IMG/VR virus record: IMGVR_UViG_3300042545_000320
Location: 1-35,937 of that record
Origin: a virus
Direction: 5' to 3' (one strand)
Length of the DNA: 35,937 bases
In this document: positions 24,021 to 35,937 of the stretch, piece by piece
Layout: the number at the start of each line of letters is the position of its first letter
How positions within the stretch are numbered: the first letter of the stretch is position 1
The notes under the pieces: model-generated
What the model was told of the DNA's origin: nothing
The model's input: the letters and a program-made list of their open reading frames with translations, nothing else
Databases searched by the model: none
Made by a program: the position numbers and the translations under genes

Positions 24021-26519
24021 CTAGGCAAAAAAATCATCGAGGGTTGCGACTTCTTCAGTTTTCCAACTGATGGCGTCGCAGATTAAAGTCAGTGGCTTTA
24101 GAAACGCAGCATTAAACTGACGGTCGTAGTCAATATGTTGTTCCAAATTAAATTGTTTGGGCAATACATTTAGGACGGCAAATACATCCTCGTGCAGAGG
24201 ATTGGGAACTTTCATGTAACAATACTTGATTTTATCTCCGTCCGTAATTGCATTATACTTCTTTTCTAAATTATTGTCAAGCAGTAATTTGTTAAAAAGT
24301 AGAGCACCACGAACATGGATTGGTGTTCCGCCACGATAGATATGAGTATCTGACTTGTAGTCAGTGAGACTCGAGCATCCACGAGGCGAAGCGATTTCTT
24401 CAAAGGACAGCTTGCCAAATTCTTCACGGAAACCGTCAATGAATTGAATCAATTCAAGTTGAGTTCCACGAATAATAATCTGCAACGCTTGCCTAATTTT
24501 ATTGCGACAGACTTCAGGAGTCGAGGATTTGACAGCCTCAATACCCATAATCTTCAGATCAGGTTCTTTATACCGAACACCCTCATTGTCCCAGACATTC
24601 AGAATGTATCGTTTCTTGGCAGTCCAGATACCACGGTCGGCAATCGCTTCGCGCTTCATCTTCATGTTCTGCATGTAGGCATTGGTATTGTCAGCTAATT
24701 CCTGAAACTTCTGATCGATAAAAGGTTCGAGCTTTTGTTGGCAGACTTTGTCGAGGAAGTTGACAGTTGTTTCTTTGTCTTTGTTTGGGCAAGCCATGTC
24801 AACCAAATCGCCGAGACGAAGATAGATCGAGTCAGTATCCGAAGCAATAACGAAACGCTTCTCTTTGCCTGTCAGCTTCGCAAGATAGGCATCCATCGCA
24901 TCACCAACATACCGAATACCATACTGACCAGAGAAGGTGATAGCTTCAGCAAACTGCAGCTTATACCAACGGAAGTAGACGTTACCAACTGCACCGAACA
25001 GAGAGTTGAGAATAATCTTCTTGGCCATCTGCATGTTATTACAGCGAGAGATCTCTGCTTCAATCGCCTTAGACTTACCTTCAGACTGCTTGCGCTTTTT
25101 CGCATCAGTCATCTTGTTCTTCCACATCGTTCGGTCGGCATACATCTTTTCGACCAGCTGCGGGAACATACCTTTCTCGTTCTTGTTCCAGACTGTTCCG
25201 TTGGCAGCAATCGCAAGATTTTCTTCTCGAGCATCCTCAAGTATGCTTGGTTTGATTCCATCCTTGAGTAGATTGTCGATTGAAGGGAAGTTAGGCAGCA
25301 TACCAGCATAAGTCTCAGGAGACATATTATATTGAACAATCAGGCTGGGATACAGAGAGTTAACGTCAAACGAAGCCACCCAATCGTGCATGCCAGTGAC
25401 AGGCTCAAGAACGAATGCGCCTTCAAACTGATTCTTCTTTTCTCCACGCTTGATCTGATTGACAACCATCTTCTGCTCGAGCATGAAGTTATGAATGATC
25501 ACATCCCAGAGCAACACAGAAGTAAAGGAATCTTCAAGATTGACCTTGGCATCATACGCGATCGCATACGCGAGCTCGATGAGAGCCATCTTCTCGTCAA
25601 GTTTCTTGACCAGTTCTACATCTCGAATGTTGTATTCGATGAACCGCTGGGGATCCTGCTTATACATACCAGCAAGAGTCTCAAATTCACTGTAGTCAAT
25701 CTTACGTTCGCCAAGTTCGACATAAGCAATATGGTCGAGGCGATAGTTTTCTTGCTTGGTATATGTAAACTTGGTGTAGAGACGTTGATAGTCTAGAGCA
25801 GATATGCCCATGATGTCATACGACTGTTGCTCGCGACCCCACATCTCAACCGACTTTTCTTTGAGCCAACCCCAAGGCGAAAACCCAGCAGCATACTCAT
25901 CGCCGAACAGCTTCTTGTAACGATTGACCAGATACGGAATATCGAAGAACTCAATATACCAGCCAGTCATGACATCAAAGTCAAACTGTTTCCAGAACTT
26001 CATGAATGCACGAAGCATACTCAGTTCGTCATCGTAGAGGAGCGCTTCTACATCATCGCGATGCTTCTTATATTGTAGAGTGGTGAACACATAATACTTG
26101 CCGCGAAACTCAACGGTGATGGCGTTGATAGCCTTGTCCGCTTTGTCAGGATTTGGGAATCCATCATCAGACTCGACCTCGATATCCAGATCGGCAACAC
26201 GAATCTGATCACGATCGTATTGAATTTCTCCTGGATAATAATCGTTCAAGAATGCATAGACCCACTTGTCCATGCCATAGATCTCGAATCCTGAGACTTC
26301 GTCATAAGTTTTGGTAAATTCTCTGGCTTCCTTGATAGAATCAAATTCTATCTTGTCGACCATAGCTCCAGAGATTGTTCTGTATTCTGGATCTGGCTTC
26401 CTTGACGGAACGAACAGATATGGGTTGTATGGAATTTTGGTCGAAACCCTGCGACCATCTTCATATCCACGAAGAAAAATAAAATTACCACGCAATGCTG
26501 CGTTGGTGTAGAATCGCAT
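24021..26519 (-). CDS. 43: Replicative DNA polymerase, T4 gp43-like (family B)
   Basis: An 832-aa family-B polymerase with 3'-5' exonuclease. Exo I is VADLDIEVES with D112 and E114, the same numbering as in T4, and Exo II/III-type segments follow (FDVMTGWYIEFFDIPY). Polymerase motif A is SFDVNSLYPSLI (near 384), motif B is KKIILNSLFGAVGN and motif C is ASDTDSIYL (near 560). The C-terminus EVATLDDFFA is a likely sliding-clamp-binding peptide, as at the end of T4 gp43. It starts behind its own promoter (26552-26580). No intein or split is present; the length is slightly below T4's 898. Confidence 0.97.
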   Translation of the reverse strand: MRFYTNAALRGNFIFLRGYEDGRRVSTKIPYNPYLFVPSRKPDPEYRTISGAMVDKIEFDSIKEAREFTKTYDEVSGFEIYGMDKWVYAFLNDYYPGEIQYDRDQIRVADLDIEVESDDGFPNPDKADKAINAITVEFRGKYYVFTTLQYKKHRDDVEALLYDDELSMLRAFMKFWKQFDFDVMTGWYIEFFDIPYLVNRYKKLFGDEYAAGFSPWGWLKEKSVEMWGREQQSYDIMGISALDYQRLYTKFTYTKQENYRLDHIAYVELGERKIDYSEFETLAGMYKQDPQRFIEYNIRDVELVKKLDEKMALIELAYAIAYDAKVNLEDSFTSVLLWDVIIHNFMLEQKMVVNQIKRGEKKNQFEGAFVLEPVTGMHDWVASFDVNSLYPSLIVQYNMSPETYAGMLPNFPSIDNLLKDGIKPSILEDAREENLAIAANGTVWNKNEKGMFPQLVEKMYADRTMWKNKMTDAKKRKQSEGKSKAIEAEISRCNNMQMAKKIILNSLFGAVGNVYFRWYKLQFAEAITFSGQYGIRYVGDAMDAYLAKLTGKEKRFVIASDTDSIYLRLGDLVDMACPNKDKETTVNFLDKVCQQKLEPFIDQKFQELADNTNAYMQNMKMKREAIADRGIWTAKKRYILNVWDNEGVRYKEPDLKIMGIEAVKSSTPEVCRNKIRQALQIIIRGTQLELIQFIDGFREEFGKLSFEEIASPRGCSSLTDYKSDTHIYRGGTPIHVRGALLFNKLLLDNNLEKKYNAITDGDKIKYCYMKVPNPLHEDVFAVLNVLPKQFNLEQHIDYDRQFNAAFLKPLTLICDAISWKTEEVATLDDFFA

Positions 26520-26551
26520 TCGATCACCTCATAGTTAAAGAGCCAATTCTC

Positions 26552-26580
26552 AATATACCCTAGAAAGGAAAAAATAGCAA
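26552..26580 (-). promoter_or_regulatory. Promoter for gp43 (TTGCTA-N17-TATATT)
   Basis: Minus strand: TTGCTA (26575-26580), 17-bp spacer ending CTAGGG, TATATT (26552-26557). The TTCTTGCT start and TAGGGTATA end match the primase promoter, suggesting co-regulation of polymerase and primase. Confidence 0.72.
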
Positions 26581-26591
26581 GAACTATTTCC

Positions 26592-27344
26592 TCAATCGAC
26601 GGAATATTCTTTGTCTTCAAAATTGGTCAAGTAGTCATTCAATTGGTTGATTTTTCCGAGATTGCGCAGAGCCTTATAGACCAGATTCTCTTGCGCAAAT
26701 TCTCCAGCTTTCTGGATTCCTGAAGATCTCATCTGGTGGAGTCTACCCTTCAGCTTTTTAATTTGCTGTGCCTTCTCTTTTGTTCCGTAGGCAAAGTCGC
26801 TTGTCATATGATCAATCTGTTTCGCATAATACTTAATCTTGCGAATTAGATTCGGATTTGAATACATCTGTTTCACATCGTGCTTCGATGGCTTCGAGAT
26901 CCACTTGTTGGTGATCAGAGAGTAAATTCCTTGAGCATCTTTTGGTTCTTGTTTTTCATCCTGAGCATACAACTCAACAGGATATCCTTTGATTCGGATA
27001 TTGGGATGGTACTTTGCCCAGAGAATCTTCTTGTCGTATAACCAGTCGTCGAGAATGTCTGGGTCTTTGATGATGTTTTCCATATCAACAACAAGATGCA
27101 GGTCGATGTCCGAGAAGTCGGTATAGTTGTAGTTACAGTTCCCGCCAATCAGAATGATGTCTTTGATGACACTGAACGGAATACGAGAGAAGTCTGCCCA
27201 GTCATGTGCGATTCGAATCAGAGCAGCATGAATCTTTGGGTCTAGCTTTTCTTTCTGCCAGATCGCAGGATTGAGCTGATCATGATACTGCAGAGTAGTA
27301 TCGAATTTAGATCTTTCGTTCAGGAATTCTGTAAATTTGAGCAT
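26592..27344 (-). CDS. Nucleotidyltransferase-fold protein with capsid-targeting-like N-terminus, 250 aa
   Basis: N-terminus MLKFTEFLNERSKFD resembles the T4 capsid-targeting sequence, with LNE as a candidate protease site. The core IGGNCNYNYTDFSDIDLHLV at about 66-85 has the GG/GS and D79-x-D81 pattern of Pol-beta-type nucleotidyltransferases, with PVELYAQ as the likely third acidic strand. The helical C-terminal half is basic (QQIKKLKGRLHQMR). A TATAAATA late promoter lies 28 bp upstream, so it is made late although it sits beside gp43. It could be an injected nucleotidyltransferase; the substrate is unknown. Confidence 0.75.
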   Translation of the reverse strand: MLKFTEFLNERSKFDTTLQYHDQLNPAIWQKEKLDPKIHAALIRIAHDWADFSRIPFSVIKDIILIGGNCNYNYTDFSDIDLHLVVDMENIIKDPDILDDWLYDKKILWAKYHPNIRIKGYPVELYAQDEKQEPKDAQGIYSLITNKWISKPSKHDVKQMYSNPNLIRKIKYYAKQIDHMTSDFAYGTKEKAQQIKKLKGRLHQMRSSGIQKAGEFAQENLVYKALRNLGKINQLNDYLTNFEDKEYSVD

Positions 27345-27371
27345 GGGGATCTTTCGTGTTAGAACTCGTTA

Positions 27372-27383
27372 TATTTATAAATA
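27372..27383. promoter_or_regulatory. Back-to-back late promoters in one 12-bp palindrome
   Basis: TATTTATAAATA is a perfect palindrome that contains TATAAATA on both strands (minus 27372-27379, plus 27376-27383). Leftward it is 28 bp from the ATG of the 250-aa gene; rightward it is 34 bp from the i-spanin ATG. It is the only visible promoter for the lysis cassette. Confidence 0.75.
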
Positions 27384-27417
27384 TATGAGAATTGAAATTA
27401 ACAAGAAGGCTTGTCTC

Positions 27418-27933
27418 ATGTTTAGTATGATCCCTTTTCCTGTCAAAATTATGGCAATCATATTCATTGTTTTAGGTGCTGCTGGTTGGGGCTATATGAA
27501 AGGCTCTGCTCATGCAGAAGTCGAACTGGCCAACTACCAAGCCAAAGCCGAAAAACAAATCTCAGAATTAAAAACAGAAAACACTACCATCTCTAGTCAG
27601 GTCACGACAGAATTTGTCGATCGGGTCAATACCATTCACGACAAAGAAACAGTCTATCGCGATCGTCTGGTAAACCTCGGCGAGAGCACCAACAACCTTT
27701 CCAATGGTTGGGTTGAGCTTCATGATGCCGCTGCTAAACTTGCTGATCCAGATGCGCAACTAGCTGGTGACAAATCTCCATCTGGCATCATGGACAACTC
27801 GGCGCTTGCTGTTGTGATGGGCAACTATTCAGTATGCCATCAAAACAAACAGCAGTTGATTTCTCTTCAGAAATGGATCACAGACAACAAGGCAGCTGTC
27901 GATAAAGTAAATGCAGAGGGAGCGAAAAAATGA
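27418..27933 (+). CDS. i-spanin (Rz-like) lysis protein, 171 aa
   Basis: I start it at ATG 27418 (MFSMIPFPVKIM), 8 bases after AGAAGG; the longer open frame has no ribosome site. Residues 8-27 form one transmembrane helix. A long coiled coil through the periplasmic part follows (YQAKAEKQISELKTENTT, TEFVDRVNTIHDKETVYRDR). The C-terminus has NYSVCHQNKQQLISLQKWI, as in Rz proteins. Its stop overlaps the lipoprotein gene, the classic Rz/Rz1 arrangement. Spanins fuse the inner and outer membranes at the last step of lysis and imply a Gram-negative host. Confidence 0.82.
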   Translation: MFSMIPFPVKIMAIIFIVLGAAGWGYMKGSAHAEVELANYQAKAEKQISELKTENTTISSQVTTEFVDRVNTIHDKETVYRDRLVNLGESTNNLSNGWVELHDAAAKLADPDAQLAGDKSPSGIMDNSALAVVMGNYSVCHQNKQQLISLQKWITDNKAAVDKVNAEGAKK

Positions 27934-28103
27934 AGAAGCTGATTTATATTATTCCTTTGGTAATTGCTTTGTCGGGATGCGCAGGAAAAACCAGACTTGT
28001 ACCTCAAGCATATATGCCAGAGCCACCAGAGATTCTGATGAAGTCTCCTAAAGAATTATCCACAATCAAACAACCAACAAAAACAGAAGGAACTCCAAAA
28101 TGA
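27930..28103 (+). CDS. o-spanin (Rz1-like) lipoprotein, 57 aa
   Basis: MKKLIYIIPLVIALSGCAGK has a basic start, a hydrophobic core and the lipobox LSGC with acylation at Cys17. The mature 41 residues are rich in Pro, Lys and Glu (MPEPPEILMKSPKE), typical of Rz1. ATG overlaps the i-spanin stop (ATGA) and its own stop overlaps the next ATG. An outer-membrane lipoprotein paired with the i-spanin is the best reading. Confidence 0.85.
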   Translation: MKKLIYIIPLVIALSGCAGKTRLVPQAYMPEPPEILMKSPKELSTIKQPTKTEGTPK

Positions 28104-28309
28104 AAACTCTCTTAGAAAAAATTAAGAGCTTCTTTATCTTCTTAGATGTCAATCATGACGGCAAAGTTTCAGCCGAAGATGCTGAAATTGCGAAGGCATT
28201 GGCAGAAAAGAAATTCAAAGAAGCCAACGAAATTATTAATGATGTGAAGGCAGAAGTTGCTGTTGTGAAAGAGAAAGTTAAAAAAGCAACAAAAAAGAAA
28301 GCAAAATAA
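28100..28309 (+). CDS. Small EF-hand protein in the lysis cassette, 69 aa
   Basis: MKTLLEKIKSFFIFLDVNHD continues into a canonical calcium-binding EF-hand loop at residues 16-27 (DVNHDGKVSAED). A long lysine-rich helix follows, ending KKATKKKAK. It overlaps the o-spanin stop (ATGA) and the putative holin start (TAATG), so it is translated with the lysis proteins. An EF-hand protein here is unusual. It could sense Ca2+ or bind the membrane through the FFIFL segment and basic tail, perhaps as an antiholin-like regulator (inference). Confidence 0.75.
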   Translation: MKTLLEKIKSFFIFLDVNHDGKVSAEDAEIAKALAEKKFKEANEIINDVKAEVAVVKEKVKKATKKKAK

Positions 28310-28758
28310 TGAACCCTCTATCATTTTTTTCAACACCACCCATTACTTCATTCGAGCAGTTAGAGCTTGAAAAGGGCAAGATTCAGCTAACCATCATGAA
28401 GATGGCTGCTACAATCCTTGGTATTATCATGCTAGCGGTTGTATTCATTTTTCTCATCGGTATGTTCATGCCAAACGAACTTATCGACAACAACGAAATC
28501 TTCAAAATCATTGGACCTGCATTCTCTACTATCGTAGGTGCTTTTGTCGGTGCGTTTGCTACTATGATGGGTATGAAGGTGACTGAGCTTGATACAAATG
28601 TCAAGACTCAAGAACTTGGCAAGACTGATCACAAGGCACTAGCAGAAGCGCATGTGATTAATGCACAAGCAGAGTCGATTGAAGCTGATACTGAAATTAA
28701 GCTAATGGCTGCTATTGACAAGTATCAAGATTCAGATGAAGACCACGGTCCATTCTAA
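28309..28758 (+). CDS. Putative holin, two transmembrane helices, 149 aa
   Basis: Two hydrophobic segments, at about 32-54 (MAATILGIIMLAVVFIFLIG) and about 65-88 (IFKIIGPAFSTIVGAFVGAF), are separated by a short acidic loop. A soluble acidic C-terminal tail with ELDTNVKTQELGKTDHKAL follows. No holin family signature is recognised, but the position between spanin genes and endolysin and the membrane topology make it the best holin candidate in the cassette. An inner-membrane structural role cannot be excluded. Confidence 0.62.
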   Translation: MNPLSFFSTPPITSFEQLELEKGKIQLTIMKMAATILGIIMLAVVFIFLIGMFMPNELIDNNEIFKIIGPAFSTIVGAFVGAFATMMGMKVTELDTNVKTQELGKTDHKALAEAHVINAQAESIEADTEIKLMAAIDKYQDSDEDHGPF

Positions 28759-28768
28759 GGAACAGCAC

Positions 28769-29953
28769 ATGACAAAACTAACAGAACATTTCGCTCTAGA
28801 AGAGATGACCGTCTCTCCAACTGCAAAGAAGTTGGGGATCCCTAATACGCCTACTGCTGAACACATCGAGAACATGCGCTATTGCTGCGAAAAGATTCTC
28901 GAACCTGTTCGTGCTAAGTTTGGTCCAGTCACAATCAACTCTTCGTATCGTGCTCCTCTTGTCAACAAAGCAGTTGGCGGTTCGAAGACTTCACAACACG
29001 TCAATGGCCAAGCTATCGACTTTGAAGTCAAAGGTGTTGACAACAAGAAGGTCGCTGACTGGGTTGCAGACAATCTTGAATTCGACCAAGTCATCCTTGA
29101 GTTCTACACTGCTGGTGATAAGAACTCTGGCTGGGTTCACGCTTCGATCAAGAAGGAAGGCGGAAACCGCAAGCAGCGTCTGATTGCTAAGAAGTCGAAG
29201 GCTGGCGGGACTCAGTACGTTCCAGTTGCGGACTTTGATCCATCAACGACTCGCGAAGCAGGAGCTCCTCAAGTAGCTGGTCCAGCAATTGCGAAGCAGT
29301 CGGCTGCTCCTCTAAAGGCAGCTGTGGCTGTTGCGGGTCTTGGTCCATTAGCTGCTCTCCAAACTAAATGCGGCATTGGTGCCGATGGTAAATGGGGTCC
29401 AGGTACTTATAAGGCTGCACGCGACTTCTTCAAACTGACCAATGGTCAAGCAGCTCACTTCTTCGGACAGTGCGCTCACGAGTCAGGTGGCTTTAAAGTC
29501 TTCTCAGAAAATCTTAACTATTCGGATAAGGGTCTCAATGGAATATTTAAAAAGTATTTTCCAACGATTGCGTCAACAGCTGGTTACGCTCGTAAGCCTG
29601 AAAAGATTGCGAACAAAGTCTATGCCAACAGGATGGGCAATGGACCTGAAAGTTCGGGCGATGGTTTTAAATATCGAGGTCGAGGTCCGATCCAGTTAAC
29701 TGGCAAGGATAACTACACTGCATTTGCTGCTTCGGTAGGCAGACCTGATGTTCTAACAAATCCAGATATTGTTGCTGGCGAGTTGGCTTTCGAATCAGCT
29801 CTGTGGTTCTTCAAAAAGAACAATCTGTTTGCGATTGCAGACAAAGGTGTATCCGACGCTGTCATTACTCAGATTACAAAACGAGTAAATGGTGGGACGC
29901 ACGGTCTAGATGATAGACTTAAGAAAACCAAACAATACTTTGCTTGGGGATAA
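28769..29953 (+). CDS. Two-domain endolysin: M15 peptidase plus GH19-like muramidase/chitinase fold
   Basis: Start ATG 28769 (MTKLTEHFALEEMTVS) lies 8 bases after AAGGA. Domain 1 (about 1-135) is a peptidase M15_3-type zinc peptidase with H77-x6-D84 (SQHVNGQAIDFE) and H124 (GWVHASI), expected to cut peptidoglycan stem peptides. A linker with ALQTKCGIGADGKWGPGTYK resembles a short peptidoglycan-binding motif. Domain 2 (about 200-394) is GH19-like, with catalytic E238 in AHESGGF and YRGRGPIQLTGKDNY near 302, expected to cut glycan strands. There is no signal peptide, so release needs a holin. Having both activities in one 394-aa protein is notable. Confidence 0.9.
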   Translation: MTKLTEHFALEEMTVSPTAKKLGIPNTPTAEHIENMRYCCEKILEPVRAKFGPVTINSSYRAPLVNKAVGGSKTSQHVNGQAIDFEVKGVDNKKVADWVADNLEFDQVILEFYTAGDKNSGWVHASIKKEGGNRKQRLIAKKSKAGGTQYVPVADFDPSTTREAGAPQVAGPAIAKQSAAPLKAAVAVAGLGPLAALQTKCGIGADGKWGPGTYKAARDFFKLTNGQAAHFFGQCAHESGGFKVFSENLNYSDKGLNGIFKKYFPTIASTAGYARKPEKIANKVYANRMGNGPESSGDGFKYRGRGPIQLTGKDNYTAFAASVGRPDVLTNPDIVAGELAFESALWFFKKNNLFAIADKGVSDAVITQITKRVNGGTHGLDDRLKKTKQYFAWG

Positions 29954-29960
29954 ATGATGA

Positions 29961-29983
29961 AGGGGGAGCCAAAAACTCCCCCT
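29961..29983. terminator. Bidirectional transcription terminator between converging genes
   Basis: An 8-bp perfect stem (AGGGGGAG with CTCCCCCT) around the loop CCAAAAA, sitting between the endolysin stop (plus) and the hsp20 stop (minus). The T-tract is weak on either strand (moderately T-rich on the minus side), but the GC-rich stem and location support termination of both convergent transcripts. Confidence 0.75.
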
Positions 29984-29993
29984 CCACTTTATG

Positions 29994-30470
29994 TCACTTA
30001 GTTTTAGTTTCTGCTAAGAATTCTGCAGGATCTGTAATTTCAATTTTCTTTGGCTTATTAGCCTCAGGAATAATTGCTTCCAGACCAACACGCAGAATGC
30101 CATTGAGAAGCTGAGCACCATTAACTTCGACATTATCTGCCAAAGTAAACGTGCGAGTAAACGGACGTTGGGCAAGACCTCTGAACACAAATTCGCCTTC
30201 ATCGGTTGATTGTGTGTTCCCTTTGATAACCAGTTTATCACCAGCCAACTCAAGTTCGATATCCTGCTTGCAGAAACCTGCAACAGCCATCTCGATGACA
30301 TAACGATTGTCATCAATCTTCTTGATATTGTATGGGGGATATTTGATTTCTTGGGCCATCTTAACTGATTGCTCAGCAGCTTCAGAGAGTTTCTTGACGA
30401 TTGGATCGAAACCGACTAGATAACGATCGAATGGAAATTGTAGGAATGTGTTCCCAAATTCAAATGCCAT
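29994..30470 (-). CDS. hsp20: Small heat-shock protein Hsp20
   Basis: A 158-aa alpha-crystallin-type holdase chaperone. PPYNIKKIDDNRYVIEMAVA begins the domain at about residue 45; GDKLVIKGN and FTRTFTLADNVEVNGAQLLN then GILRVGL are the conserved beta strands. The N-terminal arm (MAFEFGNTFLQFPFDRYLVG) matches IbpA-like proteins. Phage Hsp20 genes are common in marine T4-like phages near the replication cluster. ATG follows GGAGG at 5 bases. Confidence 0.93.
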   Translation of the reverse strand: MAFEFGNTFLQFPFDRYLVGFDPIVKKLSEAAEQSVKMAQEIKYPPYNIKKIDDNRYVIEMAVAGFCKQDIELELAGDKLVIKGNTQSTDEGEFVFRGLAQRPFTRTFTLADNVEVNGAQLLNGILRVGLEAIIPEANKPKKIEITDPAEFLAETKTK

Positions 30471-30482
30471 AGTTACCTCCTC

Positions 30483-30800
30483 TTACTTGCAGCGCGAAAA
30501 TAGTGCGCGATTTGAAAAGAATTCGTTCTTTGACAGAGCTGAGCTTTTGTCAGCATCAGCAACAGCAAAAAACTTTTTCTTGACAGTGCAACCAGTTTGC
30601 TCTAGTTCTAGAGTAGAGATTGTGCCATTTGCGTTTGTATCGAGACGAGCAAACAATTGTGTTCTCCAAGAACCAGCAACTGGAGTTACAACTTGAGTTG
30701 CAGCAATTTGTTTTAGTTCTGAGGCAGAGAGTTCGCCGTTTGCAAAGGCAGGGGTTGCAAGCAGAGTTGCGGCAATAATGCCGATAAGAGTATTTTTCAT
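30483..30800 (-). CDS. Secreted two-EF-hand protein, 105 aa
   Basis: Signal peptide MKNTLIGIIAATLLATPAFA, cleavage after residue 20. Two EF-hand loops follow: D54-E65 (DTNANGTISTLE, good ligands) and D82-E93 (DADKSSALSKNE, lacking the usual glycine). Cys71 and Cys104 could pair in the periplasm. A host-like EF-hand periplasmic protein in a phage operon is unusual. It follows the glycosyltransferase after a 70-bp gap and precedes hsp20 by 12 bp. Calcium binding is well supported; role unknown. Confidence 0.78.
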   Translation of the reverse strand: MKNTLIGIIAATLLATPAFANGELSASELKQIAATQVVTPVAGSWRTQLFARLDTNANGTISTLELEQTGCTVKKKFFAVADADKSSALSKNEFFSNRALFSRCK

Positions 30801-30833
30801 TATGTGCTCCTTATTAAGCGAGTTTTTAATTTT

Positions 30834-30854
30834 GATGTCCCATTAGGCGACATC
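30834..30854. other. Hairpin between glycosyltransferase and EF-hand gene
   Basis: GATGTC (30834-30839) and GACATC (30849-30854) form a 6-bp stem with a 9-nt loop in a 70-bp gene-free gap. Only the plus direction has a following T-rich stretch, although both flanking genes are on the minus strand. So this is more likely an mRNA stability or processing element than a terminator of the operon. Confidence 0.35.
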
Positions 30855-30870
30855 GTTTTATTTAGTGGAA

Positions 30871-31695
30871 TTAACCAAAAAATGAATCTAGTGCATTTTC
30901 AGCAGCCTGAATCTTGTTCGGCTTTACCATACGGCTATCGCGCAGCTTGAGTTCGGCGTGTCCTGTTGTTTCACGAATATACATCTTACAATATTCAGGG
31001 AAGGCATCGGCAATAATCTGAATGCTCTTCTGGACATATTCCTTGGTGCGAATATCCTGAAGACCACCTTCTTCTTTGTAGTAGCGAGACTTGACAGTAT
31101 ACTTGTCTAGACGAACGACAGCTTCATTCTTGATGTATTGACGAATAGAATATTCATAATCTTCGCCGTGGTTAGTGATACGTTCAAGGAAGTCGGCGTG
31201 TTCAACAATGACACCAAACATAGAAGCGATGATGTAGCAGAGCTCTGTATAAACACGATCCTTCATAAAGTATGCGTTGGCAGCTGCATAGATACCGAAG
31301 GTTTTGGCCCCAGCTTTTTCGCAAGCCTCGAAACCCTGGATGATAATTTCTTTTTCAAGATCCTCAACCCGACCAAGCTTCTGTTCGCTGATCTTTACCT
31401 GCACTTCTTCGATGTCATCATCAAACATCATCAGCTTTGTGCCTTCAGGATACCAACGCTCAATAAAGTTGCGCTGCGCACCAATAGTAGGAACACCTCG
31501 AACAATCTCAATATCCTTGGCGTAAGGATTATCCTTCAACGCATTCGCATATCGATCATACTCGCCTTCTTCCTGATCATTGACAAAGATCTTAATCTTG
31601 GCAGGGTCAATATTATACGACTCAAGAACTTTCAGAGTCTTGTTCTGAACAGTCTTTTCGCGATGATAAGAAGGGATAGCAATACAATAATCCAT
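30871..31695 (-). CDS. Glycosyltransferase, TET/JBP-associated (TAGT)-like, 274 aa
   Basis: Opens MDYCIAIPSYHREKTVQNKT, a GT-A-type start seen in phage glycosyltransferases associated with TET/JBP dioxygenases. Then come IKIFVNDQEEGEYDRYANAL, GVPTIGAQRNFIERWY and the metal/sugar-binding triad FDDDIEEVQV (D92-D94). It starts 10 bp after the dioxygenase stop, so the two are co-expressed. The expected role is sugar transfer onto a hydroxylated base in phage DNA; a protein or polysaccharide target is the alternative. The C-terminus AENALDSFFG closely resembles the polymerase and dioxygenase C-termini, suggesting a sliding-clamp-binding tail. Confidence 0.75.
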   Translation of the reverse strand: MDYCIAIPSYHREKTVQNKTLKVLESYNIDPAKIKIFVNDQEEGEYDRYANALKDNPYAKDIEIVRGVPTIGAQRNFIERWYPEGTKLMMFDDDIEEVQVKISEQKLGRVEDLEKEIIIQGFEACEKAGAKTFGIYAAANAYFMKDRVYTELCYIIASMFGVIVEHADFLERITNHGEDYEYSIRQYIKNEAVVRLDKYTVKSRYYKEEGGLQDIRTKEYVQKSIQIIADAFPEYCKMYIRETTGHAELKLRDSRMVKPNKIQAAENALDSFFG

Positions 31696-31705
31696 AATAT
31701 ATCCT

Positions 31706-33040
31706 TTAGAAGAAATTCTCTAGAGAGTTTTCCATAACCTGATTGACGATTCCGTCCTCATCTTCAAGACCTTTCGAGGCCAAGAAGTCACCCCACTCTT
31801 GGCTTTCCCACATCGAAGGCGAGACACCGTTCCAGAGTGGACGCTGCATAGGATGGTCTTTGTTTGTTCGACGAGTCTCAACGAACTCGCGACGAGCCGA
31901 CTCATACTGCCAAGATCTTAGATCTAGCATTTTTTCGCGGAAGTAGCAGACCAAAGAGATACGCTCAGCTTCTGCATTAGTTAGAACGATTGGGGTGTTC
32001 CCGTGAATAATTTCGTGATTGTTTACCAAAAGTAGATCTCCAGGACGGACGTTGACTGCAATCCTGAGTTCTGGAAAAACCAGATAGCCACCTGTATAAT
32101 CACCCGATCCAACGACCAGCAGATTACTCAGACCACTATCAAGATCGCCAGCATCACGGTGCGCAGCAGTGCGGAATGATTTATTGACTGTGATTGTTGT
32201 AAAGACAGTCTCAGGAACAAGGAAGCGAGGGTCAATTTTATCTGCAGCTGCACGCTGATTGCTCCACTTCAAGGGAAGCAGTTCTTTGTAACCACGATTA
32301 AGTGACTGTAGAAACGGAAATGATTTTTCGAAAGTTTCGAAGTTCTTCTCGGTGAAAGAAGTGGCGCGACCCCAAGGAATACGAGGATAGCGATCGTACC
32401 AGCCAGCAACACCAGAGAACACAGACTTAGCATAGTTCGTCACGCTGATCCACTGATCATGAACCAGTTTGGCCTGACGAATCTGTTCATCGTCAGATTG
32501 CTTGACCAGTTCGTAAGCCCACTTGTCGAACCAACCAAAATACTCTGGATACTTTTCGCAGACTTTGCTACGAAGCCAGACCCGACCACGAGTTTCGTCG
32601 GACGGAGCATTGTTGCCATATTTGAGTTTGATTGTTTCAAGAGTTTCGTCGGCAACGATTGCGTTGCGAGGACGGAGAAACCAGCTAAGAACTTCTTCTT
32701 CGTAGTCAGTCACCCACTCGCGACCGCCACGATGTTCAGTCGACAGCATTTCGCCACGAGGTCCAGCTGCCAGTCCACGATTCTGACTTTCTACTGCAGC
32801 TTCGCGTAGACCAGCGTAAGCGCCATCCTGTTCTTCTTGACTGAAGAAGTTCTTGCGGAACTTAAATGCGATGCGATTTTCATCTACACCATCTTCGGTG
32901 GAACCAGTAAGGGCAGAACCTGACGGAAAGTAACCATCATAATCTTCTTCAACTAGAAGATCGTAATGACTCTCATCAAGAAACTGACCAAGTAAATGCT
33001 CGCAGTTGTGTTTTTCTGTGGCAACAATTACCTTTACCAT
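31706..33040 (-). CDS. TET/JBP-like 2OG-Fe(II) dioxygenase, 444 aa
   Basis: The catalytic domain is at about 275-370. FTTITVNKSFRTAAHRDAGD contains H294-x-D296, SGDYTGGYLVFPELRIAVNV is the core sheet, IIHGNTP contains the second iron ligand H346, and ERISLVCYF contains R360 for 2-oxoglutarate. The 'N-sFRTa-HrD-GD' and 'HGN-p...ERiSlV-Yfr' phrases are those of phage TET/JBP enzymes, which oxidise the methyl group of 5-methylcytosine or thymine in DNA. Residues 100-250 form a helical, Trp-rich domain of unknown role. The last residues, MENSLENFF, look like a clamp-binding peptide. A consensus promoter lies upstream (33070-33098) and an AAGGAGATATA leader precedes the ATG. Substrate base is not determined. 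Confidence 0.83.
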   Translation of the reverse strand: MVKVIVATEKHNCEHLLGQFLDESHYDLLVEEDYDGYFPSGSALTGSTEDGVDENRIAFKFRKNFFSQEEQDGAYAGLREAAVESQNRGLAAGPRGEMLSTEHRGGREWVTDYEEEVLSWFLRPRNAIVADETLETIKLKYGNNAPSDETRGRVWLRSKVCEKYPEYFGWFDKWAYELVKQSDDEQIRQAKLVHDQWISVTNYAKSVFSGVAGWYDRYPRIPWGRATSFTEKNFETFEKSFPFLQSLNRGYKELLPLKWSNQRAAADKIDPRFLVPETVFTTITVNKSFRTAAHRDAGDLDSGLSNLLVVGSGDYTGGYLVFPELRIAVNVRPGDLLLVNNHEIIHGNTPIVLTNAEAERISLVCYFREKMLDLRSWQYESARREFVETRRTNKDHPMQRPLWNGVSPSMWESQEWGDFLASKGLEDEDGIVNQVMENSLENFF

Positions 33041-33907: not shown

Positions 33908-34294
33908 TTATCCGCCAGTTTCGAGTTTCTTTTTTATATTCTGGATTTGTTCAACAGTAAGAACAGAGAGGGCTTCCTCAGCTCTCTTGATGCTGTACCC
34001 ATAATATTGGGCAATATCTTTAGCATCTTGAGAAACAACTGTTTTTGCTTGCTTCGAAAACCTTTTCCTTCTATTTATTGAATTCAGAAAGTAGTCAAAC
34101 TGTTGGATATTGGATAGATGGAAGTTCTTATTCATCTCGTTTGCATAAAGAACAGAGTCTTCAAAATAAGAAAGAGTCTTATTTGTTATCCAAGGATTAT
34201 AATCCTTCTCTGCCAATTCTGGATTAGCTGAATTACGAATAATATCTTTCTTATTGTAAGAAACGTCAGTTATGTAGTCAAAGGGATTGCTCAT
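33908..34294 (-). CDS. 62: Clamp loader small subunit, T4 gp62-like
   Basis: Acts with four gp44 subunits to load the gp45 clamp. The 128-aa sequence contains NPFDYITDVSYNKKDII, DYNPWITNKTLSYFEDSVLY, ANEMNKNFHLSNIQQFDYFL and AQYYGYSIKRAEEALSVL, all in the order of gp62 proteins. It is shorter than T4 gp62 (187 aa), as in marine relatives. ATG overlaps the gp44 stop (ATGA), coupling the 4:1 subunits at translation. Confidence 0.92.
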   Translation of the reverse strand: MSNPFDYITDVSYNKKDIIRNSANPELAEKDYNPWITNKTLSYFEDSVLYANEMNKNFHLSNIQQFDYFLNSINRRKRFSKQAKTVVSQDAKDIAQYYGYSIKRAEEALSVLTVEQIQNIKKKLETGG

Positions 34295-35229
34295 TTGAAG
34301 GAGCAGGTTGACATAATTTCCAGGAATGCTGCTGCCAGATTGATTTCTGCATTAGCAACAAACGCTGCCTGATACTGATATTTTGCCAGAATCAAAATAA
34401 GATCAGGAATACTGGATGGCACCATCAAGTCATAGGCTGCATCATATAGACTCTTGAAGAGAACATCAGAGTCGATGTCAGAGTTCTCGCCGACCCACTT
34501 ACGAACAGCAGGGAAATCGCCATTCTTCATGAACCCGATGAGAGTCTTGAACGCTTCTTCCGAGAAGTTGGCTAGGATACCTTCATCGATGGCACCAGTA
34601 ACCGAATAACGCTGAAGTTCGTTTAGAACACGACGCCAGTCTGGATAATGGCTGGTGATGACAGCAGCAACAACCTTCTTGTCAAAGGGAACACCCTCGC
34701 CTTCAAGAATACCGCATGCACGCTTGAGGAACTGCGCAGCTAGGCTGGGCAGGTCGGCTTTCTTAATCTTGAAGTCGACAACCGAACAACGAGACTGAAG
34801 CGGATCAATGATACGATTCTTGAAGTTGCAGGTCATAATGAACCCACAGTTCGCCGAATATTCTTCCATGAAATTGCGGAGAGCTGGTTGGGTTGAGTTG
34901 GCATTCAGATAGTCAGCCTCGTCGAGAATGACATACTTGCGACCGCCAGTGAAACTGACAGCCGATGCATAGTTACGAATTTCGTTTCGAAGAACGTCAA
35001 TGTTACCATTCATTGAGCCATTGATCACGATATAATCGCAACCAAGTTCTTCGAGCATAGCCTTGGCTATCGTAGTCTTACCGCAACCAGCAGGGCCAGA
35101 AAGAAGAAGATTAGGTACATTTTTTTGGTTTACAAACTCCTGGAAAGTTTTCTTCAGTGTATCGGGAAGGATACAGTCGTCAACGGTCTTAGGGCGATAC
35201 TTCTCGACCCAAAGGAAATCTTCGCTCAT
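34291..35229 (-). CDS. 44: Clamp loader large (ATPase) subunit, T4 gp44-like
   Basis: AAA+ ATPase that opens the gp45 ring and places it on DNA. The 312-aa protein has Walker A GPAGCGKT (45-52), Walker B YVILDEAD with the DEAD box (103-106), sensor-1 IMTCNF and the SRC motif (146-148, LQSRCSVV) carrying the arginine finger. The opening FLWVEKYRPKTVDD is typical of clamp loaders. A long inverted repeat separates it from gp45, and its ribosome region reads GGAGATATATTATG. Confidence 0.96.
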   Translation of the reverse strand: MSEDFLWVEKYRPKTVDDCILPDTLKKTFQEFVNQKNVPNLLLSGPAGCGKTTIAKAMLEELGCDYIVINGSMNGNIDVLRNEIRNYASAVSFTGGRKYVILDEADYLNANSTQPALRNFMEEYSANCGFIMTCNFKNRIIDPLQSRCSVVDFKIKKADLPSLAAQFLKRACGILEGEGVPFDKKVVAAVITSHYPDWRRVLNELQRYSVTGAIDEGILANFSEEAFKTLIGFMKNGDFPAVRKWVGENSDIDSDVLFKSLYDAAYDLMVPSSIPDLILILAKYQYQAAFVANAEINLAAAFLEIMSTCSFK

Positions 35230-35325: not shown

Positions 35326-35937
35326 TTAAGCGAAAGTTGAATTGCTCTCAGTTGCAATCCAATAAACTACGCTGTCAGAAGAGAAGCGAGAGATCTTCTT
35401 GCTCGATACTTCAACGCTATAGTTGCCAGGAAGAATCTTCGAAAGATATTCAGGCTTAAACACAGCGGTAAATTCTCTATCGCAAGTTCCAAGTTCTTCA
35501 TTGAATTGATCACAACCAACATCCTTGCTCGCAAAGGCACGCATATACAGCTTTCCACCTTCGCCAACGATGGCAATTTCAGGAAGCTGAAGAACACCAG
35601 TTGCCTTGACCACCGAGCTAAGAGCTTCTTGCGTCAGATTAAAGACAACCTCTGCTTCAGGAAACTGAATTTCCTTGGCAGGTGCAGCAACGATGACATT
35701 TTCTTGGCAGAAGCGATACACAACCTTCTGCTTGCCACCCTTGATGATCACAGCGCTGTCATCAAATTCCAGTTCTGGATCCTTAAACAAAGAAATAACT
35801 GACAGGAATCGGTTGAGATCATAGATACAGAAGGACTTTTCGAAATTATCTGAGATAGTTGCCTTCGAGAGCAGAGTCTTGAGTGGCGAGATAGTCGAAA
35901 GAGTATTTCCTTCTGTAATCTTGATGCCTTGGTTAAT
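35326..35937 (-). CDS. 45: Sliding clamp (DNA polymerase processivity factor), T4 gp45-like, N-terminus cut by window edge
   Basis: Trimeric ring that tethers gp43 to DNA and, in T4, also activates late transcription. The frame is open to the window edge, giving 203 residues. FCIYDLNRFLSVISLFKDPE matches the T4 IYDLNGFL region, and SDSVVYWIATESNSTFA matches the C-terminal strand just before the stop. The middle contains VVAAPAKEIQFPEAEVVFNL and YLSKILPGNYSVEVSSK, as in gp45 proteins. About 20-25 N-terminal residues are probably missing, judged from T4 gp45 (228 aa). Confidence 0.93.
   Translation of the reverse strand: MNQGIKITEGNTLSTISPLKTLLSKATISDNFEKSFCIYDLNRFLSVISLFKDPELEFDDSAVIIKGGKQKVVYRFCQENVIVAAPAKEIQFPEAEVVFNLTQEALSSVVKATGVLQLPEIAIVGEGGKLYMRAFASKDVGCDQFNEELGTCDREFTAVFKPEYLSKILPGNYSVEVSSKKISRFSSDSVVYWIATESNSTFA

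Follow-up and report, generated by a model that had tools for sequence, protein, structure and literature searches.

C-terminal peptides of the sliding-clamp-binding type on a phage TET dioxygenase and its associated glycosyltransferase

Why would a phage DNA polymerase share its short C-terminal peptide with two enzymes that, judging from their sequences, probably place chemical groups on DNA? The question is raised by a 35,937-nucleotide stretch of viral DNA (IMG/VR record IMGVR_UViG_3300042545_000320, positions 1 to 35,937; the window), a fragment of the replication region of a T4-like phage. Three proteins encoded on its minus strand are concerned: the family B polymerase gp43 (24021..26519; Pfam DNA_pol_B, PF00136 at 4.5e-29 and PF03104 at 1.6e-24), a TET/JBP 2-oxoglutarate/Fe(II) DNA dioxygenase (TET; 31706..33040; PF12851, Tet_JBP, 4.1e-26), and a TET-associated glycosyltransferase of GT-A fold (TAGT; 30871..31695; PF20691, 9.7e-12; PHROG beta-glucosyl-HMC-alpha-glucosyltransferase, 2.8e-14). 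They end ...EEVATLDDFFA (peptide ATLDDFFA, 24024..24047), ...QVMENSLENFF (NSLENFF, 31709..31729), and ...AAENALDSFFG (NALDSFFG, 30874..30897), respectively. Here we argue that both enzymes may bind the sliding clamp through their last six to eight residues, peptides of the type found in gp43, gp55, and gp33 and placed at the end of flexible linkers.

The initial annotation had reported these three C-termini, all on the minus strand, and stated that no other protein in the window ends this way. Both statements hold: of the 640 open frames with a minimum length of 30 codons, these three alone match the pattern. The common motif is likewise real, but the proposed [SAT]L[DE]xFF is better given as [STNA]L[ED]x[FL]F with zero to two trailing residues. 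For scoring, a six-column profile was trained on 95 unique gp43 C-termini of this type, with TET and TAGT left out and up to three trailing residues allowed. Across 51 window genes, this gp43-only profile scored gp43 at 18.1, TET at 11.7, and TAGT at 9.7 bits, the fourth-best gene reaching −4.7; thus, 3/51 passed the 8-bit cutoff, which had been fixed before the homologue counts described below. The codons of the three tails are unlike each other (CTC/CTA, TTT/TTC), so the idea of the tails as a recent DNA-level copy of the gp43 3′ end was discarded.

For gp43, loci were gathered by a scan with an alignment, from which the best 80 of at least 80 were taken; a scan with a single gp43 protein had yielded four loci. 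Homologues were made nonredundant by their last 40 residues. With the gp43-only profile, the tail was present at ≥8 bits in 92 of 108 TET and 46 of 60 TAGT homologues. The same threshold was reached by none of 337 gp45, gp44, gp62, UvsX, and gp41 homologues and by 20 of 3479 other open reading frames (ORFs) of at least 100 residues, several of which are DNA-modification genes. A scan of bacterial genomes returned no TAGT relatives.

The conserved ends follow poorly conserved sequence. Pairwise identity averages 0.21 across the 12 residues before the motif, versus 0.63 over the six motif residues in TET (91 tails) and 0.65 in TAGT (50 tails). In the window, the variable linkers span about residues 424–437 of TET (31730..31771) and about residues 255–266 of TAGT (30898..30933). 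AlphaFold2 models give confident bodies (pLDDT 86.3 for TET and 91.2 for TAGT) and low-confidence tails on both, with pLDDT of 67 and then 57 across the last 14 residues of TET and below 50 at residues 258–266 of TAGT. A conserved tail on a divergent linker recalls T4 gp55, whose clamp-binding epitope sits on a divergent linker of variable length; the motifs of gp43, gp55, and gp33 are interchangeable and bind gp45 (PMC2988020).

Both enzymes look intact. TET residues H294, D296, H346, and R360, which we take to be the HxD...H...R active-site residues of TET/JBP enzymes, are invariant in 40/40 aligned sequences, and Foldseek matches the fold to NgTET1, human TET2, CcTet, and CMD1. The TAGT model matches glycosyltransferases such as AvpGT and TarS and is of GT-A type; in its acidic motif, D92 and D93 are invariant among homologues and D94 is kept in at least 90%. 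A strictly T4 alpha-glucosyltransferase-like system was rejected, given that TAGT matches only Pfam PF20691 and not PF11440 and that T4 alpha-glucosyltransferase is tail-less. T4 installs its hydroxymethyl group at the nucleotide stage, not by a TET enzyme acting on DNA. The TET/JBP gene is labeled "SNF2 DNA repair protein" in the records of DLP6, Cr30, S-CBWM1, and HTVC112P, apparently a spreading misannotation.

Genome-wide, the tail is rare. In a 155-kb relative (G010), 4/194 gene-like ORFs reach 8 bits: the polymerase, TET, TAGT, and a 109-residue ORF overlapping the TET start. Phage C48C1 has three such ORFs out of 198 (polymerase, TET, and a D12 DNA methyltransferase), and T4, searched as two genome parts, has one out of 160, namely gp43, followed by the known clamp binders gp33 (6.1 bits) and gp55 (2.7 bits). 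In this census the greedy ORF filter lost gp43 and the second TAGT of DLP6, so the DLP6 count is incomplete, and the Cr30 stretch excludes its gp43. The 109-residue ORF overlapping the TET start at L367:12118-12447 has weak endonuclease VII/HNH similarity and the tail GSLEEFMV.

Thirteen of the 20 background ORFs were scanned against Pfam and comprised two GT-B glycosyltransferases (one below the cutoff), two TAGTs, a pair of D12 DNA methylases, two ADDT amino acid:DNA transferases, an AAA ATPase, and four genes with no match. Counted by modifier family, unique tails at ≥8 bits were found in 4/4 GT-B, 2/2 of a second TAGT-like family, 3/27 ADDT, and 3/21 D12 methylase proteins, many further ADDT tails being weaker look-alikes. 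The idea of the tail as a mark of all DNA-modifying genes is not upheld by the D12 and ADDT counts or by the Melnitz C5 methylase and the T6 TAGT, which have none. Tagged genes near TET that lack a Pfam match (L060:1548-2333, L035:11320-12099, L012:7762-8403, and L066:8793-9833) are candidates for new DNA-modification enzymes.

The tails also vary with the clamp and polymerase they accompany. An odd polymerase tail tends to go with similarly odd enzyme tails in the same genome. In the L115 locus, gp43 ends DLSAFLV, TAGT SLADFLV, and TET SLAGFL; in Cr30, gp43 ends DLSSLFD and TAGT DLSKLF, the Cr30 TET end GATLF being a poor match. Within-genome tail similarity, calculated with kinship ignored, was 3.92 versus 3.57 in shuffled pairings for polymerase and enzymes (p 0.018, 16 genomes) and 4.08 versus 3.75 for TET and TAGT (p 0.0004, 49 genomes). 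Classified with a 6-bit label threshold, which was chosen after seeing the homologue counts and also used for the tree below, the unique TAGT tails from loci with T4 replication genes comprised 37 of gp45 type, one of neither type (Cr30), and none of a second form, QxxLF. Loci with no T4 replication genes in the stretch gave 13 gp45-type, 15 QxxLF, and 16 tails of neither type.

The QxxLF tails (QVKLF, QQTLF, QTQLF, QAKLF, and others; 15 unique tails fit Qxx[LMI]F) agree at positions 1, 4, and 5 with the bacterial beta-clamp motif QLxLF, found for example in insertion sequence (IS) transposases (PMC4549789). Neither a family B polymerase nor gp45 was found in 16/16 QxxLF records, which are short and possibly fragments; in controls, the polymerase was recovered in 2/4 and gp45 in 4/4. 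Eight of the sixteen, again short and possibly fragmentary, were also searched for PolA and PolIII alpha, with none found in 8/8. In the background, QxxLF ends 10/4033 ORFs, including two C5 cytosine methylases adjoining tail-less TAGTs. These short methylases (L305:2384-3025 and L331:9113-9712) end QIGLFK and QTKLF, as though a different member of the pathway had taken over the clamp peptide. At L121:7721-9294 a tandem pair of TAGTs, only distantly similar to each other, has a QxxLF end on both members. The complete 139-kb phage S-CBWM1, which encodes PolA, has a tail-less TET and a TAGT with only a weak look-alike; no family B polymerase or gp45 was found in it, a combination that fits the clamp-tail idea.

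We consider it very probable, on comparative grounds, that the TET and TAGT tails bind the clamp. The tails would tether both enzymes to the phage gp45 ring left on newly made DNA, so that oxidation and subsequent glycosylation of a base would take place just behind the polymerase. That both enzymes are clamp-tethered and that modification takes place close behind the fork is, in our judgment, likely, if less secure than binding itself. This was the proposal of the initial annotation, and its sequence side stood: in many T4-like phages both enzymes carry a conserved tail of clamp type, and this reading survived the comparative tests; gp45 binding, simultaneous occupancy of the ring, and coupling of modification to replication are what we infer from it. 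We also lean, with less assurance, toward a broader view in which phages often hypermodify their DNA in assembly-line fashion at the replication clamp. Modifiers that are unrelated to one another (TET, TAGT, GT-B, ADDT, and D12 methylase) would have independently gained a peptide matched to the clamp at hand: gp45-type in T4-like phages and QxxLF beta-type in small phages using the host replisome, where a C5 methylase sometimes seems to bear QxxLF in place of TAGT.

Several observations weigh against this account. The T6 TAGT and the T4 beta- and alpha-glucosyltransferases have no such tail, although T6 has gp45, and the HTVC112P TET and the Indlovu TAGT are also tail-less. Homologues without the peptide, named in advance as evidence that would speak against tethering, therefore do occur, even beside gp45 in T6, but mostly in contexts where gp45 was not found. 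The 16 unique TAGT tails from contexts without T4 genes that carry neither motif belong on the same side, and the covariation p-values lack a control for kinship. In a tree of 89 TAGTs, QxxLF forms one clade with losses (five changes over three states), and the split between QxxLF and FF tails as many independent events was rejected in favor of one switch plus losses; since the QxxLF TAGTs are one clade, the Fisher p of 1.8e-7 for this split is inflated by kinship. The TETs of QxxLF phages have no QxxLF (0/128 unique TET tails overall), so in these phages at most one member of the TET-TAGT pair would be tethered. Finally, PMC13216743 concludes that in T4 the ratio of alpha to beta glucosylation, with its alpha dominance, is set chiefly by expression and enzyme activity and not by clamp binding.

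Other explanations share part of this evidence. The tails might bind gp45 mainly as a sliding tool belt, serving processivity or letting the enzymes scan DNA well after the fork has passed, and gp45, via gp55 and gp33, does tether RNA polymerase for late transcription at a distance from the fork (PMC2988020, PMC7892883). Fork coupling and processivity are indistinguishable from the tails alone; the placement of the TET, TAGT, and clamp genes in one same-strand row favors co-expression with the replisome, without excluding a tool belt, and we regard the latter as unlikely.

In other systems, C-termini of acidic-hydrophobic character bind hubs other than clamps, and the tails could in principle address another replisome hub that favors them, such as a single-stranded DNA-binding protein or a helicase assembly protein. 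The profile, however, is that of gp43's own clamp tail, of the type interchangeable among T4 gp43, gp55, and gp33 in gp45 binding (PMC2988020), and the host-type QxxLF form is the published beta-clamp motif (PMC4549789), so that clamps are pointed to in both lineages; a different hub seems quite improbable. Even less credible is a chance or compositional likeness of hydrophobic C-termini, or functionless inheritance with the gene. Six-residue motifs are short, but the background rates are low (20/3479 and 0/337), the motifs are conserved after nonconserved linkers, and they recur on unrelated modifiers; chance similarity was rejected by the gp43-only profile test in the window, the relatives, and the genome census.

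The minus-strand row comprises gp45 (partial), gp44, gp62, RegA, a MazG-like pyrophosphohydrolase, TET, TAGT, and, farther on, gp43, behind which lie RecA-like and helicase genes, these two named by eye from the sequence, on the same strand. The presumed receptor, gp45 (35326..35937; PF09116, 5.8e-9), is truncated at the 5′ end by the edge of the window and, compared via its L002 homologue, is homologous to the clamp structures RB69 1b77/1b8h and T4 1czd. The clamp loader gp62 and gp44 (33908..35229; Phage_clamp_A and Gp44_lid, PF16790 at 6.7e-10 and PF21328 at 1.3e-12) shares strand and gene row with TET and TAGT, and the window thus encodes both the clamp and its loader. No C5 methyltransferase was recognized by Pfam among the ten window proteins scanned. 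Within the replication row lies a small EF-hand protein with a signal-like start (30483-30800), and the minus-strand row is broken by four plus-strand ORFs (27337-29953), the last of which looks lysis-related by eye.

If clamp tethering is correct, it would account for the modification of each new phage genome before it meets host nucleases, and the tail would offer a seven-residue, removable handle on replication-coupled modification. The tail could also serve as a sequence signature flagging unknown DNA-modifying genes, with several tagged ORFs lacking a Pfam match, and the gp45-type and beta-type tails would provide a natural clamp-swap comparison within one enzyme family.

Phage-encoded TET was reportedly described by Burke in PNAS in 2021, and the dioxygenase here would share with it the oxidation of DNA bases by a phage TET/JBP enzyme. 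The literature searched, which did not cover that study, where prior mention is possible, contained no report of clamp tails on TET, TAGT, or other modifiers or of a clamp-matched swap. The initial annotation went further in knowing of no described example of clamp-tethered hypermodification, which is too strong. T4 alpha-glucosyltransferase is reported to bind gp45 (Sommer 2004, as cited in PMC6024577), a pull-down repeated in PMC13216743, and a clamp-bound DNA glycosyltransferase was therefore already known. As a glycosyltransferase of DNA with reported clamp binding, this enzyme parallels what is proposed for TAGT, but it belongs to PF11440 (PMC13216743) rather than PF20691 and ends FDIITK, without a C-terminal tail of this kind.

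A close likeness is to T4 gp43, gp55, and gp33, which end in a short hydrophobic-acidic peptide on a divergent linker in a phage that has gp45; the difference is that those proteins copy or transcribe DNA, whereas here the peptide sits on DNA base-modifying enzymes. The QxxLF TAGT clade is like the beta-clamp motif proteins of PMC4549789 in its Q at position 1, L/F at positions 4/5, and C-terminal placement, yet in this clade the motif ends a DNA glycosyltransferase of phages, in the place that a gp45-type tail takes elsewhere. Eukaryotic DNMT1, with its PCNA-binding motif (PMC9690074), offers a parallel in that a clamp recruits this DNA-modifying enzyme to newly made DNA, although DNMT1 performs maintenance methylation and both motif and enzyme are unrelated. 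Set beside these systems, the tails described here would extend gp45-type tethering to a TET-TAGT pair and add a putative clamp-matched variant in other phages.

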